Positions 36,173 to 43,266 of a stretch of 64,000 nucleotides of DNA are shown one piece after another. The translations under genes were made by a program, and so were the position numbers. The DNA lies in contig JAOACB010000004.1 in NCBI GenBank assembly GCA_026418055.1, forward strand, positions 1-64,000. The letters run 5' to 3'. Origin of the DNA: Fimbriimonadales bacterium (GTDB lineage: Bacteria > Armatimonadota > Fimbriimonadia > Fimbriimonadales > Fimbriimonadaceae). Within the stretch, counting starts at the first letter, position 1. Each line of letters opens with the position of its first letter. The notes under the pieces were generated by a model, which searched no databases, had not been told where the DNA came from, and saw only the letters and a list, made by a program, of their open reading frames with translations.

Positions 36173-38332
36173 ATGTTGATGCTCGCCTCCCTCGCTGCGG
36201 TCGGGTCGCTGTCCCAGGCCGCTTCGGCGCCGTTGCCGGTGGATGTGGTGGTCGATGGAAGGGAGGTGAGGGTCGAGATCCCTGGGGGCGGTTGGGAGCC
36301 TCTGCCCGGCTCGGCGATCCTTCGGGACGGCGAGTGGCGCTACCTCCTCAACGCCCGGGGAAGGGCCTTCGCGCGCGTGGCGGACCGAGGAGGGTGGTCG
36401 GATCTGGCGGCGTTGCACCGTCGGGCGGAGCAGCGCCAAGGGATCGAGCCCGTCGTCTGGAGAGTCAAGGCCTTCGTGTTCCGCCGGTGGGACGACCTGA
36501 TGGAGGCGGGCGGGCTGTTGCGCCAGGTTCGCGCGACGCTGGAGCCCAGCCGGTTGCAGTTCGTCCTGCAGAGCCTCGGTCGCCTGGCGGTTGCGGCCAA
36601 GGCGTTCTCCGGCGGTCAGATCCGCTTGGAGATCGACGTCGACGTCGAGGAGCCTGCGATCGATCGCGCCTTCCTGCAGAACGAAGCCGCCCGATTCGTC
36701 GCGGCGCGCACCAACCGCGGGGAGTTCGAGGCGGAGGACAGGGTGTTCCGAGGCCCGTACGATCTGGTGCTGCTGCTGGCCGCGCAGCCCGAGGGCATGC
36801 GTCTCGAGAGCCCGCGCATCCCAGGCGTCAGGCTGGTGGCCGTCTCGGCCGAGGCAGAGGCGGGGGAGGAGTCGGCGATGCTCGCGCGCCTGTTGGACGC
36901 TTGGGCGGCGAGCCTGGCCGATGGCGCGCGCGCCCACGGCTGGGGGGAGTTCGAGCTCGAGGGCCTGACGGTCGACACGCCGTCCGGACCGTACTCCGAC
37001 TTGCCAGCCGTGCTGAGCCTCGGACCGTTCGCCCGAAGCCGGCCGGCCAAGCCCGCGGCCACCGAAGCTTGGCTCCAGAACGTCGCCGGAGGCTTCCCGC
37101 TGGCCGGGTGCGGCATGGGCTCCTCGGAGGCCGAGGGCGTCCGCTGGGCCGAGGCCGCGCTGGCGGCCGCGCACCCGGAGGCGTTTCCGACGGTGCGGGT
37201 GGTGCGGGCCGATCCGGACGGCCCGAAGCTGGGGGACGCGGGCAGGCTGCCGTCCTGGCTCGGCAGCCGGGAAGCCCAGCCGAACTCGGGGCCCGACGCT
37301 TTGCCCGTTCGCGCGGCGACTCCCGCGGACGAGCCGGGGACGAACGTGGAGCCCTCCAAAGACCCCGGCGCGACGGCGGCCGCGAGGGCGGCCTACGCTT
37401 GGCGCATCGCCCGCTCGGGACAGGCGGAGCCGGGGGACGCCGCCCTGCTCGTGCGATGGATCGCCGAACGAGACGACTCGCTGCGGATCCATGCCTGCCG
37501 AGCCCTCCAGCGCGTTCCGGACCCCGCGGCGCTGCCGCAGCTTGCCGCACTGTTCCTCGAGTTCAACCCCCGTGTGGCGGAGGAGGCTGTGAAGGCTGTG
37601 GCCGCCATCGGCACCCCCGAGGCCTGGGAGGTCCTCAGGCGGGGCGCGATGTTCGGGCGCTACGACCACACCCGCGAGGCCTGCGCCCGCGAGCTTGGCA
37701 GAACCGGCGACCCGAGGCACGCGTCCGCGATCAGCACGCTGCTGTCGACCCGCAGCTGGCGCTCGAGGGAGGCCGGAGCCCGCGCCCTGGCGGGTCTGAA
37801 GGAACCGATGGCCCAGATGATGGCGCTCGCGTTCCTGAGCGACGTCGACCCCTTGGTTCGCCTGGCGGTGGTCGAGGGTGTGGATGTGGGCTTGGACGCG
37901 GTGTGCCGACGCCTCCTCTGGCTCAGCGTGAACGACCCGAGCGACCAGGTGAGGATGCGCAGCATGCTGAGGCTGATGCAGTCTCCGAAGGCCGAGTTCC
38001 AGAACGAGGGACTGAAGGGGGTGCGCGACGAGAGCCGAGGAGTGCGCCTGGGTTTGGCCCGGGCTTTCGCCGAGATCCCCGAGGCGCTGCGCCTGCGGGC
38101 GGCGCAGTTCCTGCTGGCCGATTCCGACCCCACCGTGCGGGCGGCCGCGGTCGGCCCGGCGCCCGCGGCCGCCCTCGAGTCCGTCTGGGGCGACGCGGAT
38201 CCGCGCGTGCAGCTGGCTCTTGCCGAGCGCGCCAAGCTCGAGGAGCTGCCCGTTCCCCCCGGGGCCTTGGAGGCGTGGGTGCGGAGCATCGACCCGCGCG
38301 TAGCTCGCGCCGCCCAGGAGTTGCGGGGATGA
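36173..38332 (+). CDS. secreted HEAT-repeat protein
   Basis: 719 aa with a signal peptide (MLMLASLAAVGSLSQAASA). The N-terminal 400 residues were not matched to a family; they contain segments such as VDVVVDGREVRVEIPGGGWEPL and a mixed alpha/beta region. A Pro/Ala-rich linker near 370-400 leads to C-terminal helical repeats (about 410-719) of the HEAT or PBS-lyase type, for example LLVRWIAERDDSLRIHACRALQRV and LLSTRSWRSREAGARALAGL. Such repeats bind proteins. It starts 4 bp after mtnP and overlaps rpiB by 4 bp. Function unknown. Confidence 0.75.
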   Translation: MLMLASLAAVGSLSQAASAPLPVDVVVDGREVRVEIPGGGWEPLPGSAILRDGEWRYLLNARGRAFARVADRGGWSDLAALHRRAEQRQGIEPVVWRVKAFVFRRWDDLMEAGGLLRQVRATLEPSRLQFVLQSLGRLAVAAKAFSGGQIRLEIDVDVEEPAIDRAFLQNEAARFVAARTNRGEFEAEDRVFRGPYDLVLLLAAQPEGMRLESPRIPGVRLVAVSAEAEAGEESAMLARLLDAWAASLADGARAHGWGEFELEGLTVDTPSGPYSDLPAVLSLGPFARSRPAKPAATEAWLQNVAGGFPLAGCGMGSSEAEGVRWAEAALAAAHPEAFPTVRVVRADPDGPKLGDAGRLPSWLGSREAQPNSGPDALPVRAATPADEPGTNVEPSKDPGATAAARAAYAWRIARSGQAEPGDAALLVRWIAERDDSLRIHACRALQRVPDPAALPQLAALFLEFNPRVAEEAVKAVAAIGTPEAWEVLRRGAMFGRYDHTREACARELGRTGDPRHASAISTLLSTRSWRSREAGARALAGLKEPMAQMMALAFLSDVDPLVRLAVVEGVDVGLDAVCRRLLWLSVNDPSDQVRMRSMLRLMQSPKAEFQNEGLKGVRDESRGVRLGLARAFAEIPEALRLRAAQFLLADSDPTVRAAAVGPAPAAALESVWGDADPRVQLALAERAKLEELPVPPGALEAWVRSIDPRVARAAQELRG

Positions 38333-38787
38333 GGATCGCCGTCGGCACCGACCACGCCGGCTTTCCTCTGGCGGTGTTGGTCGCGGAGTGGCTCAAGCAG
38401 CAGGGGCACGAGGTCGAGTGGCACGGGGCGGACAGCCCTGAGAGCTACGACTACCCCGATGCGGCCCGGTCGCTCTGCGCCGCTGTGCTCCGGGATCCTT
38501 CGAGCTTGGGGATTCTGGTGTGCGGCTCGGGGATCGGCATGAGTATTGCCGCCAATCGCATCCGAGGCGTCCGCGCCGCGCTCTGCTGCTCCGAGGAGAT
38601 GGCAGAGCTCGCGCGACGCCACAACCACGCCAACGTGCTGTGCCTCGGCGCCCGGCTGACGGACGCCGATCGGGCGCGGCGCATCCTGGAAGCGTTCCTG
38701 AGGACTGAGCCCGATCGGGACGAAAGGCACGCCAGGCGCGTCGCGAAGCTGGACGATGGCGTTGATCGTCTAAAGGCCGATTCATGA
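38329..38787 (+). CDS. rpiB: ribose-5-phosphate isomerase B
   Basis: 152 aa RpiB/LacAB-type isomerase that interconverts ribose 5-phosphate and ribulose 5-phosphate. VGTDHAGF at residues 5-12, CGSGIGMSIAANR near 65 (active-site Cys) and RRHNHANVLCLGARLT near 95 are the family motifs. It begins inside the stop of the HEAT gene and overlaps the next gene by 4 bp. LacAB or allose-6-phosphate isomerase are related alternatives, but the motif set suits RpiB. Confidence 0.93.
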   Translation: MRIAVGTDHAGFPLAVLVAEWLKQQGHEVEWHGADSPESYDYPDAARSLCAAVLRDPSSLGILVCGSGIGMSIAANRIRGVRAALCCSEEMAELARRHNHANVLCLGARLTDADRARRILEAFLRTEPDRDERHARRVAKLDDGVDRLKADS

Positions 38788-40034
38788 AGATTCTTCGTTC
38801 CCTGTGCGTCATCGCGCTGCTGTCGGCTCTGGGCAGCGTGGCTTTCCTCCATGGCGTCGGCAGGCGCCTCGAAGTCGACAGGGCCGCCCTGCTGGCGTCC
38901 TCTCCCTTGGCGGGAACGTTGCTCGCCTCGAGGCAGCCGGCCCAGATCGACGAGACGGCGTACTTCGAGAGCATGTCCTCCCTCGTGCGCGACACCTACG
39001 TGGAGCCGAACGTCGAGCAGAGCAAGCTGGCTCTCGGAGCGGTGCGGGGGATGGTGCTGGGGTTGCGGGACGTGGATTGTCGCTTCATGGACCCCCGGCA
39101 GTACCAGATCTTCCGCAACGCGCAGGCCGGCAACTACGAGGGCATCGGCATCGAGGTGGCTCTGGAGCGGCCTGCCAACGCCCAAGAGGCCGAGCTGCCC
39201 ACCGAGGGCGAGAACGAGGGCATGCGGCCCTCGGCCCTGACCACCGCCGTCGTGAGCCGCGTGGTGCCGGGAAGCTCCGCCGAGCAGGCGGGGATGCGCC
39301 CCGGCGACGTTCTGGATTCGCTCGACGGCAAGTGGGTGGTGAGCGCGCAGGCGGTGCTGGATCTGCAGACCCTGCAGAAGCAGGTTCTGGAGGGCAAAGC
39401 CACCGCGCGCGACCTGAACCTCAAGCGAGAGGAGCTGAGAAAGCGGTTGCAGAACGCCATGATGCCCGCGAGGGCGGCGGAGAGAGCGATGTCCGGCACC
39501 GAGGGAGAGGTGGAGGTCGCTTGGCTGCGCGGGGGCCAGAGGTTCTCGGCCAAGCTGCGCCGGGGTCCATGGCGGATGCCGATCGTCAGCGAGCGGCCGG
39601 GGGGCGCGCTGGTCGTGCGGCTCGTGCCGGGCGCGGCGGAGGAGTTGGGTAAGAGGATCGCCGGCAAGACGGCGGTCACCCTGGATCTGCGGGGCGAGGC
39701 CAGCGGCGACTTCGAGGCGATGCGGGCCGTGCTGGCGAAGCTGGCTCCCAAGGGCCAGTACGGCCGTTTGGTGCGCTTCAATCCAGAGCGGAAGACCGCG
39801 CCTCTGAGCATCGAGACGGGCAACCCCAAGCCGCCGAAGGTCACGCTCCTCGTCGACCGCTTCACGTCCGGCGCCGCCGAGATCCTGGCCACGGCGCTCG
39901 CCTCGAAGGGAGCGAAGCTGCAAGGAACGAAGATGTCCGGAGACCGCCGGAAGATCGAGGTCGTGCCTCTGCCGGACGGCGGGGCGTTCACGCTCGTCAC
40001 GGCGCAGTTCGAAACCGGTGGAGGCGTGCAGTGA
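38784..40034 (+). CDS. S41-like protease homologue lacking the catalytic dyad
   Basis: 416 aa with an N-terminal signal or anchor (ILRSLCVIALLSALGSVAFLHG). The layout follows C-terminal processing proteases: an N-terminal helical part (SSLVRDTYVEPNVEQSKLALGAVRGMV), a PDZ domain (VVSRVVPGSSAEQAGMRPGDVLDSLDG) with an 80-residue helical insertion, and an S41 core. At the nucleophile position the sequence is TSGAAEI with Gly363, and at the Lys position SGDRRK with Asp387, so both dyad residues seem lost. The next gene is an intact paralogue of the same length, overlapping by 4 bp. The pair may form a complex in which this one is structural or regulatory. Confidence 0.8.
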   Translation: MKILRSLCVIALLSALGSVAFLHGVGRRLEVDRAALLASSPLAGTLLASRQPAQIDETAYFESMSSLVRDTYVEPNVEQSKLALGAVRGMVLGLRDVDCRFMDPRQYQIFRNAQAGNYEGIGIEVALERPANAQEAELPTEGENEGMRPSALTTAVVSRVVPGSSAEQAGMRPGDVLDSLDGKWVVSAQAVLDLQTLQKQVLEGKATARDLNLKREELRKRLQNAMMPARAAERAMSGTEGEVEVAWLRGGQRFSAKLRRGPWRMPIVSERPGGALVVRLVPGAAEELGKRIAGKTAVTLDLRGEASGDFEAMRAVLAKLAPKGQYGRLVRFNPERKTAPLSIETGNPKPPKVTLLVDRFTSGAAEILATALASKGAKLQGTKMSGDRRKIEVVPLPDGGAFTLVTAQFETGGGVQ

Positions 40035-41281
40035 GGCTCGTGTTCGTCAAGCTCGGGGTCGCCCTCGTGTTCCTCGCCTTCTGCTTCGTGCTGGGGTTCG
40101 CCCTCAAGGACCTGGGCAACGGCCGGCTGCCGACCGGGGAGAAGCTGCTGGCGGCGGTCGGCATCGAGCAGCCCAAGGCGTTCGTTCCTTCGAGGCTCTA
40201 CTCGTCGACCTTCCAGAAGATCCAGACGGACTACTACAAGAAGGTCGACCGCAGCGAGCTCAAGTACGCTTCGATGGCGGGCATGATGGCCTCGCTGGGG
40301 GATCCGCACACGTCGTTCCTGGATCCGAAGGCCGCGCGCGAGTTCGCCATCGAGACGTCGGGCAACTTCGTCGGCGTCGGAGCGCGGCTGTCCGCGGATC
40401 CGCTCGGGGCGAAGGTGGTCAGCGTCTTCGAAGGCAGCCCCGCCGAGAAGGCCGGGCTCCGGGCGGCCGACGTGATCACCCGCGTGGACGGCGAGTCGGT
40501 GGCCGGCGTGCCGCTCGACCGCATCGTGTCCAAGATCCGCGGCGAGCCGAACACCGCCGTGACGCTCACGGTCATCCGCGGGAGCTCAGACAAGCCCGTG
40601 ACGATCCGCGCCGTGCGGGCGCCCATCGTGGCTCCGACCGTGGAAGGGCGCATGCTGGACGATTCCGGCGTGGCCTACATCGAGATCACCAACTTCGCCG
40701 AACCCACGGTGCAGCAGTTCGACAGGGTGTGGGAGCGGCTCTCCAAGCAAGGGCCGGTCGGGCTGGTGATCGACGTGCGCGGCAATCCGGGCGGGTTGCT
40801 GCAGACCGCGGTCGACCTTCTCTCGAGGTTCGTCGACAACAAGGTGGTCGTGAAGATGAGGATGAGGGGCGGGCAGGAGGAGACCGCCCGCACCGAGAGC
40901 GGCAGGCTGGCAGGGATCGACGTGCCCATCGCCGTTCTGATCAACGAGGACTCCGCCAGCGCAGCCGAGATCTTCGCCGGGGTGCTGCGGGACTACCGGC
41001 TGGCGACGCTCGTCGGCGAGCACACCTACGGCAAGGCGTCGGTCCAGAACGTGTTCCAGCTGATCGACGGCGCGAACGCCAAGATCACCATCGCGCGCTA
41101 TTACCTGCCGTCCGGCGAGTACATCGGGCGCAAGGTGGACGAGGACGGACAGTACCTTTCCGGCGGGCTGGTGCCCGAGCACCGCATCGACCTGGATTGG
41201 TCGTCCGATCCCGTGCTGGGCGATCTGGCCAAGGACGCGCAGCTCCAGAAGGCCGTCGAGGTCGTCAAGAACCAGCGCTGA
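40031..41281 (+). CDS. ctpA: S41-family C-terminal processing protease
   Basis: 416 aa with an N-terminal membrane anchor (FVKLGVALVFLAFCFVLGFAL). A PDZ domain spans about 110-200 (SVFEGSPAEKAGLRAADVITRVDGESV). The S41 core keeps the dyad: Ser310 in NEDSASAAEIFAG and Lys335 in GEHTYGKASVQNV, 25 residues apart as in Tsp/Prc. It degrades or trims exported proteins at their C-terminus. The start is GTG 40031 inside the stop of the inactive-looking paralogue. A hairpin at 41295 closes the operon. Confidence 0.92.
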   Translation: MRLVFVKLGVALVFLAFCFVLGFALKDLGNGRLPTGEKLLAAVGIEQPKAFVPSRLYSSTFQKIQTDYYKKVDRSELKYASMAGMMASLGDPHTSFLDPKAAREFAIETSGNFVGVGARLSADPLGAKVVSVFEGSPAEKAGLRAADVITRVDGESVAGVPLDRIVSKIRGEPNTAVTLTVIRGSSDKPVTIRAVRAPIVAPTVEGRMLDDSGVAYIEITNFAEPTVQQFDRVWERLSKQGPVGLVIDVRGNPGGLLQTAVDLLSRFVDNKVVVKMRMRGGQEETARTESGRLAGIDVPIAVLINEDSASAAEIFAGVLRDYRLATLVGEHTYGKASVQNVFQLIDGANAKITIARYYLPSGEYIGRKVDEDGQYLSGGLVPEHRIDLDWSSDPVLGDLAKDAQLQKAVEVVKNQR

Positions 41282-41412: not shown

Positions 41413-43266
41413 ATGGAGTCGGCCGAGGCTCGCAGCCGGCGTAGGTTCGCCAAGTTCGCCACCTTCCTCCTGGGATTCACGATGCTCGTGATCGTGTGGG
41501 GGGCGTTCGTGCGCGCCAGCCTCTCGGGCGATGGATGCGGCGCTCACTGGCCCTTGTGCAACGGCGTGGTGGTTCCGTTGGGAGCGGAGACGGAGACGCT
41601 GATCGAGTACTTCCACCGCCTCACCAGCGGTCTCTGCCTGCCTTTGGCGATCGCGCTGTACGTGTGGTCGCGCCGCATTTCCGAGCCCCGCAGCGCCCTG
41701 CGCAAGGCGGCCGGCCTTTCGGTGGTGTTCATGGTCACCGAGGCGCTGGTGGGGGCGTGGCTGGTGCTGAAGGAGCTGGTCGCGGAGAACGATTCGATCT
41801 TCCGCGCGATCTGGATGGCGGTGCACCTTGCCAACACGTTCCTTTTGCTCGGTGCGATCGGCATGACGGTGTACCTGGCCCGCGGCGGGCCGGTGCCGAG
41901 GCTGCGCGGCCAGGGCTCGCTGTTTCCGGCGCTGCTGCTCGCCCTTGTGGCCATGCTGGTGCTCGGCGTGTCGGGCGCTGTGACGGCGCTGGGCGACACG
42001 CTGTTCCCCTCGCGCTCGCTCATCGAGGGGCTGAAGCAGGACGTCTCCCCCACGGCGCACTTCCTGATCCGTCTGAGGCTGTTCCACCCACTGATCGCCA
42101 CGTCGGTGGGGCTGTACCTGGTGCTCGTGCTCGGGGTGGCGGCCTCGCTGCGTCGCTCGCCGCTGCTGCTGCGCCTCAACCGCTGGGTGCTGGGCCTGTT
42201 CGCCGCCCAGATGGTGCACGGGTTCCTGAACGTGCTGACGCTCGCGCCCATCCCGATGCAGCTGATGCACCTCTTCCTGGCCGACGTGCTGTGGCTGTCG
42301 CTTCTGTGGGCGGTCGCGGCCGCGCTCGGCGAGGGCGTTCCGCAGGTGGAGACCCAGGGCGCCCATGAAGGTCCGCCGGCGGCCGTCGAGCCGGTGGGGG
42401 CTAGGGCCATGGTCCAGGCCTACGTGGCGCTCACCAAGCCCAGGGTGATCAGCCTGTTGCTGTTCACGGCGCTGACGGCGATGTTCGCCGCGGCCGGCGG
42501 TTGGCCGGGCATGGGGCTGTTCCTGGCGGTGGCGCTGGGAGGCTACATGGCCGCGGGCGCCGCCAACGCGATCAACATGGTTCTGGAGCGGGACCTGGAC
42601 GCGAAGATGACCCGCACGTCCCGTCGCCCCACGGTCACTCAGGCGATCTCGAGCCGCAACGCCCTGGCCTTCGGCTTCGCCCTGGCGACCGGCTCGTTCG
42701 CTCTGCTGTGGGCTGCCGCCAACCTACTCAGCGCGGTGATGGCCCTGTCGGGGCTGGTGTTCTACGTGATGGTGTACACCCTCCTGCTCAAGCGCCGCAC
42801 GTGGCAGAACATCGTCATCGGCGGCGCGGCCGGCGCGTTCCCCCCGCTGGTGGGATGGACCGCCGTGACCGGCCAGCTGCATCCGCTGGCGCTGACGCTG
42901 TTCGCAATCATCTTCATGTGGACGCCGGTGCACTTCTGGGCGCTCAGCCTCCTGATCAAGGACGACTATGCCCGCGCAGGCGTCCCAATGTTGCCGGTGG
43001 TGCACGGCGAGCGGGTGACGCTGCTGCAGATCGCCCTCTACGCGGTGCTCACGGCCCTGGTCTCGGTGATGCCGCTGCTGCAGGGCCACGTCGGCTGGAT
43101 GTACCTCTGGGCCTCGGTTCTGCTGAACGGCGCGCTGCTGTTGAGGAGCGTCGGGCTGCTGCAACGGTCCGACAGGCCGAGGATCGTGTCTTTCTACAAG
43201 TTCTCGATGGCCTACCTTGGGTTGCTGTTCCTGGTTCTGGCGGTGGACCGTTCCTGGCTGATCTGA
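41413..43266 (+). CDS. fusion of heme A synthase (COX15/CtaA) and heme O synthase (CtaB)
   Basis: 617 aa membrane protein. Residues 15-310 are COX15/CtaA: eight helices with conserved histidines in EYFHRLTSG near 57, AVHLANTF near 137, FHPLIATSVG near 223 and QLMHLFLADVLW near 283. A linker of about 25 residues leads to CtaB (335-617), a UbiA-type prenyltransferase with NMVLERDLDAKMTRTSRRP near 390 and LLIKDDYARAGVPMLP near 515, the two Asp-rich loops. CtaB adds farnesyl to heme B, and CtaA oxidises heme O to heme A, so the fusion makes heme A for the aa3-type oxidase encoded downstream. Separate genes are the norm in bacteria. Confidence 0.93.
   Translation: MESAEARSRRRFAKFATFLLGFTMLVIVWGAFVRASLSGDGCGAHWPLCNGVVVPLGAETETLIEYFHRLTSGLCLPLAIALYVWSRRISEPRSALRKAAGLSVVFMVTEALVGAWLVLKELVAENDSIFRAIWMAVHLANTFLLLGAIGMTVYLARGGPVPRLRGQGSLFPALLLALVAMLVLGVSGAVTALGDTLFPSRSLIEGLKQDVSPTAHFLIRLRLFHPLIATSVGLYLVLVLGVAASLRRSPLLLRLNRWVLGLFAAQMVHGFLNVLTLAPIPMQLMHLFLADVLWLSLLWAVAAALGEGVPQVETQGAHEGPPAAVEPVGARAMVQAYVALTKPRVISLLLFTALTAMFAAAGGWPGMGLFLAVALGGYMAAGAANAINMVLERDLDAKMTRTSRRPTVTQAISSRNALAFGFALATGSFALLWAAANLLSAVMALSGLVFYVMVYTLLLKRRTWQNIVIGGAAGAFPPLVGWTAVTGQLHPLALTLFAIIFMWTPVHFWALSLLIKDDYARAGVPMLPVVHGERVTLLQIALYAVLTALVSVMPLLQGHVGWMYLWASVLLNGALLLRSVGLLQRSDRPRIVSFYKFSMAYLGLLFLVLAVDRSWLI

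Follow-up and report, generated by a model that had tools for sequence, protein, structure and literature searches.

A predicted S41 pseudoprotease encoded in tandem with a CtpA/CtpB-like protease in Armatimonadota

The 64,000-nucleotide stretch of Fimbriimonadales DNA analysed here (the window) carries two adjacent genes for CtpA/CtpB-like proteins of the S41 family, the upstream one of which, gene A, almost certainly encodes an ancient pseudoprotease, judging from the residues found at its catalytic positions, and the downstream one, gene B, an active-type protease. A preliminary description of the locus had proposed that A is a pseudoprotease, and this proposal is strongly supported. The catalytic Ser and Lys occur together in none of 84 profile-aligned A proteins and in all 79 of the B partners, with A proteins being defined by a higher score with the A than with the B profile and by a position before B, a definition under which a fully intact A could be missed. 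Five further A proteins likewise lack the Ser-Lys pair, one of them retaining the Lys. The A proteins form a single clade, and A is maintained by purifying selection. The tandem recurs over much of the phylum, which suggests that A, predicted to be proteolytically inactive, functions together with B and is not a product of decay.

The gene pair and its catalytic sites

The two genes, their overlap, the codons of the catalytic columns and the nearest upstream neighbour are as follows.

38329-38787: RpiB-like gene, upstream of A
38784..40034, + strand: gene A, predicted CtpA/CtpB-like S41 pseudoprotease with an N-terminal membrane anchor; ATG start, 416 aa
40031..41281, + strand: gene B, active-type CtpA/CtpB-like S41A protease with an N-terminal membrane anchor; GTG start, 416 aa
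40031..40034, + strand: GTGA, 4-bp overlap of the A stop and the B start, the commonest arrangement within the order
39870..39872, + strand: A Gly363, aligned with the catalytic Ser
39942..39944, + strand: A Asp387, aligned with the catalytic Lys
40958..40960, + strand: B Ser310, catalytic Ser
41033..41035, + strand: B Lys335, catalytic Lys

Both open reading frames and their 4-bp overlap were found as described previously. The equal length of the two products, which had been pointed out earlier, is attributed to chance, as the A reading frames of the order with clean script-called starts range from about 408 to 494 aa. Each protein has a hydrophobic N-terminal helix and a PDZ domain that precedes its S41 protease core. 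Both are members of PF03572 (S41; 31.6 bits for A and 159.8 bits for B, with a cut-off of 24), and both score above the cut-offs of the PDZ families PF17820 and PF00595. B also passes TIGR00225 (prc) with 286.4 bits, whereas A, at 63.9 bits, lies below the cut-off of 218.6. The two proteins share 20% identity across 337 aligned residues. The RpiB-like gene is the commonest neighbour of the pair in the order (as an ORF cluster, 41 of 77 loci), and a HEAT-repeat gene is also located upstream of A. Downstream of the pair, a single 617-aa ORF (window positions 41413-43266) is a fusion of a CtaA (COX15) with a CtaB (UbiA) domain.

The catalytic residues of Bacillus subtilis CtpB are Ser309, Lys334 and Gln338 (PMC3808539). 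The corresponding Ser-Lys-Gln site is intact in B (S310, K335, Q339), so that the dyad reported earlier for the second protein is present together with the Gln. In a phmmer alignment of A with CtpB (4c2c), Gly363 corresponds to chain position 267 (Ser) and Asp387 to position 292 (Lys), which are Ser309 and Lys334 if the 4c2c chain begins at residue 43, as was assumed here. Alignment of A with the D1 protease (1fc6) places Gly363 and Asp387 in the identical two columns. The assignment of these residues to the catalytic columns is thus borne out by both comparisons, of which the one with CtpB had been proposed in advance. By the dyad criterion for S41A CTPs, B is classed with these proteases and A is not. 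Ser362 was considered as a nucleophile for A and rejected, since a Ser is found there in just 5 of the 60 order-level A proteins.

The 84 profile-aligned A proteins include six with Ser and at most two with Lys, one of which (G030) is doubtful by alignment; an acidic residue occupies the Lys column in 53, and the remaining residues there are L, N, S, R, T, H, Q, P, M and G. Within the order the residue at the Ser column of the 60 A proteins is Gly, Asp, Asn or Arg, with no case of Ser, and the B proteins have both Ser and Lys in all 55 cases that reach the site, 3 of the 58 ending short of it. The catalytic Gln is retained in 12 of 32 A proteins and the NPGG loop in 10 of 32, the GG/NPGG loop being degraded among A proteins of the window's order. 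Left out of the A set was a 453-aa ORF of G175 (L219) with both Ser and Lys, for which the A profile gave 119 bits and the B profile 85 bits; it was omitted because its score is far below those of the proteins counted as A and the 3.5 kb covered at this locus show no B next to it. The long S41 ORFs of G091, G174, G098 and G185 (67-86 bits) were also omitted.

Distribution, descent and selection

Within the window's order, the A query matched 60 of 61 genomes. In the order-level set, consisting of the loci of 59 relatives and the window, A is present at all 60 loci and is followed by B at 58, the other two (G005 and G054) having A at a contig end. In all 57 measured pairs the gene immediately upstream of B is A; the 4-bp overlap was found by script in 36 of the 57 measurable pairs, and the window is the 37th such case by its listed ORFs. 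A profile built on A matched 106 of 113 listed genomes of the order at E 2e-49 or better. The genomes outside those 106 are G023, G147, G153, G155, G173, G174 and G175, four of which are 65-73% complete, and G155 and G173 carry an A-like fragment ahead of a CTP.

When the A-profile search was applied to 291 genomes of the phylum, strong matches were obtained in many families outside the order, and A was directly upstream of B at all 20 of the non-order loci picked from the strongest matches. Among 27 loci of deep families, 25 have one CTP, each with Ser and Lys. In G202 an A-like gene (Gly, Arg) precedes a B, and G201 (L177) has two tandem CTPs, of which the upstream copy has both Ser and Lys and the downstream copy has its Lys position beyond the end of the stretch covered; the G201 tandem is treated as another, recent duplication, as both copies group with single CTPs. 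Named relatives of A were found at 27 loci, 23 of them in Armatimonadetes (mostly Fimbriimonadaceae, Fimbriimonas or Chthonomonas) and four being Chloroflexota CTPs, which assigns the window to Armatimonadota. The A-profile search covered Armatimonadota and Chloroflexota, and in 201 genomes of the latter the best match has Ser and Lys, the remaining matches being judged from alignments that mostly break at the insertion described below. Among Armatimonadota genomes that are 94-98% complete, G091 and G098 lack both A and B by the A profile at 1e-12 and have only long S41 ORFs, and G267 gave nothing at all with the same profile and threshold.

A careful tree built from 89 proteins recovers A as one clade of 30 rows with support of 100/100, and a quick tree as a clade of 32 rows (SH-aLRT 99) with long branches. 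The B clade is weak in the careful tree (75/21). The Lys column changes once and the Ser column five times on the careful tree, from which the long-branch A of G103, with its Lys retained, was excluded. The loss of the Lys thus looks old, and the Ser looks to have been lost several times or, more oddly, regained. In the genus g75 (G103, L176, and G104, L217), A has Gly at the Ser column and retains the Lys, which reverses the usual order of loss.

Selection was estimated as dN/dS by NG86, which is rough for GC-rich genes. For A, the closest 9 pairs out of 13 gave values of 0.09-0.20, three pairs at greater distance gave 0.39-0.44 and one pair was not computable; B gave 0.06-0.28 where measurable in the same 13 pairs. 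An in-frame TAA interrupts A in the G024 MAG (L084), and in G109 (L159; G109:C94) the match in B spans one TAA; either could reflect decay or an assembly error.

A and B would descend from a single CtpA-like periplasmic protease gene that was duplicated in tandem long ago within Armatimonadota, after which B would have stayed a protease. In 16 of 26 deep loci the lone CTP has an M23 gene with PcsB coiled coil upstream of it, and such a gene is also found upstream of A at 3 of the 20 loci outside the order (L137, L139 and L145), from which we infer that the duplication occurred at an M23-CTP locus.

Structural features of A

The regions of A and B that bear on its possible role are as follows.

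38952..39062, + strand: A residues 57-93, N-terminal dimerization helices, conserved as in B (role from PMC3808539)
39141..39149, + strand: A Gly120-Ile-Gly122, PDZ carboxylate-binding loop (GxG), retained
39171..39239, + strand: A residues 130-152, 23-aa PDZ loop insertion, low model confidence
39342..39455, + strand: A residues 187-224, 38-aa helical PDZ insertion
41120..41278, + strand: B residues 364-416, C-terminal stretch without a counterpart in A

The predicted model of A (pLDDT 80.0, pTM 0.68, 21 sequences) matches the D1 protease at Z 21.2 (4.2 Å over 290 residues); its match to CtpB has Z 19.4 (5.1 Å over 297 residues) and extends up to CtpB residue 362. The B model (pLDDT 85.4) matches Helicobacter pylori CtpA at Z 35.0 (3.3 Å over 347 residues); its match to CtpB has Z 33.9 and reaches residue 478. 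The earlier claim that A retains the whole fold is slightly too strong, as the A model aligns with CtpB no further than residue 362 and A has no counterpart of B residues 364-416. The C-terminal dimerization region is missing from A in the window's order.

The PDZ domain of A had been described as carrying an 80-residue helical insertion. Relative to B the excess is about 61 residues, made up of the 38-aa helical insertion, in which the model places helices at residues 188-202 and 208-222, and the 23-aa loop. A longer PDZ span is a trait of A, with a median of 74 residues in 32 A proteins vs 36 in 32 B proteins and 36 in 21 single CTPs; the span is below 60 in 2 of the 32 A proteins. In CtpB the PDZ loop Gly113-Ala116 binds substrate C-termini and Arg168 couples the PDZ domain to the protease (PMC3808539). 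The GxG loop is present in all 81 A rows that cover it. At the Arg168 column, 31 of 32 B proteins have Arg or Lys and only 2 of 32 A proteins have Arg, in an alignment that is unsure at this point owing to the insertion.

The dimerization helices of A are modelled at residues 57-72 and 79-93. Among 30 genomes of the window's family, their mean pairwise identity is 0.463 in A and 0.450 in B, while that of the catalytic part is 0.411 in A and 0.687 in B; the PDZ domain and the remaining core are intermediate, with ratios of 0.66-0.70.

Possible roles of A beside the protease

The preliminary description suggested that A regulates or scaffolds its partner, and such a role would be in keeping with the conservation of the tandem and of the dimerization helices and with the 4-bp overlap by which the genes are usually joined. 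H. pylori CtpA has one active subunit per N-terminal dimer, with the resting PDZ domain helping to close the chamber (PMC12749690), and in Pseudomonas aeruginosa CtpA just one of the two subunits is activated (PMC11021448). A and B share the fold and the N-terminal dimerization helices with these enzymes; unlike A and B, however, their subunits are identical and rest temporarily, whereas gene A encodes a copy without the dyad. With its N-terminal helices and PDZ loop retained and the dyad gone, A may be read as a fixed resting subunit, and the single active subunit per dimer in the two CtpA enzymes is a precedent for a putative A-B heterodimer of which A would be the permanently resting half. 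The chances for such a heterodimer are about even. A would bind B through the N-terminal helices, the PDZ domain of A would gate or present substrate C-termini, and B alone would cut; the substrates would be envelope proteins such as cell-wall hydrolases. A wider form of this proposal, in which the asymmetry of the CtpA dimer was split early in Armatimonadota, with A as a fixed resting subunit and gate and B as a fixed catalytic one, and in which the heterodimer is obligate in much of the phylum, is possible but tentative.

Several observations count against a heterodimer. Both subunits of CtpB can be active (PMC12749690), so that a resting partner is not generally needed, and B appears complete by itself. 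The helices of A might serve A homodimers, and A of the window's order is without the C-terminal dimerization region. The core of A also evolves faster, with the higher dN/dS in the three distant pairs (0.39-0.44), and A is broken in G024. CtpB itself is, like B, a PDZ-gated S41A protease with a Ser-Lys-Gln site (PMC3808539), and it differs from the proposed pair in that A has neither the active site nor the C-terminal dimerization region.

Homodimerization of A through the same N-terminal helices, together with the retained PDZ loop, would also suit a pseudoprotease that acts apart from B, as an independent PDZ scaffold or a binder of C-terminal peptides that collects or shields envelope proteins, with the tandem securing co-expression only. 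Non-protease proteins of the S41 fold exist: IRBP/RBP3 has a retinoid-binding role and no protease activity, and the A model matches it at Z 9.6-10.6, although it is an animal, multi-module protein with no PDZ pair partner. The adjacency of A and B, usually with the 4-bp overlap, nevertheless persists over great divergence, and both genes are missing jointly from the two largely complete genomes G091 and G098, so that independent action of A is judged somewhat unlikely. A might instead be an inhibitor or decoy, occupying the dimer face of B or its substrates and keeping B off until a signal removes A. The anatomy expected of it equals that of a resting half, coupled expression would yield balanced amounts of the two proteins, and the resting state of CtpB is a known case of a PDZ protease gated by inhibition (PMC3808539); no observation separates an inhibitor from an activating partner, and an inhibitory role is regarded as doubtful.

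Proteolysis by another mechanism, for example through Thr361, Asp387 or a Ser elsewhere, might be suggested by the invariance of Thr361 in a 34-row A alignment (near-invariant, at least 90%, in wider ones), by the frequently acidic Lys column and by the six A proteins that retain the Ser. Thr or Ser at the Thr361 position is, however, common in active CTPs (GTASASE, D1 protease), which makes a catalytic role for it unneeded, and the Lys column is varied and the GG/NPGG loop degraded in the window's order; this possibility is therefore considered very improbable. The long A branches and the broken A of G024 would be expected of a decaying duplicate heading for loss, yet decay was rejected in view of the purifying selection (the low dN/dS in 9 of 13 pairs) and of the single old clade spanning many families, and is given almost no weight. 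The A frame is also open in genomes that consist of a single contig, among them G009, G011, G019, G034 and G041, which speaks against decay and led to the rejection of an error in a single MAG as the explanation.

As a precedent for inactive partners, the Csp proteins of Clostridioides difficile belong to another protease family, being subtilisin-like. CspC and CspA resemble A in being pseudoproteases, and alongside a protease relative they form a functional heterodimer, as is proposed here for A and B; unlike the putative A-B dimer, that heterodimer excludes the protease, CspB, and has its role in spore germination (PMC12880746). No pseudoprotease partner of an S41 protease was found in literature searches of an open-licence library. 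If the heterodimer of A and B is real, the resting and cutting roles of a CTP dimer have been separated into two proteins, and the service of the inactive subunit to the active one becomes testable, which the roles within a homodimer, as they cannot be mutated apart, do not allow. The phylum would also possess a widespread bacterial envelope pseudoprotease with natural variants at differing stages of catalytic loss (Ser and oxyanion loop kept or lost).

By analogy with CtpA in P. aeruginosa (PMC11021448), the A-B pair may act in the control of cell-wall hydrolases. This link is not a local one in the window's order, since no M23 gene was found beside the pair in the window or at the 59 other order loci. 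In some families, LysM/G5 or polysaccharide deacetylase genes, which are likewise cell-wall themes, are located downstream of the pair (L140:440-1489, L144:498-1469, L138:567-1580 and L139:597-1553).
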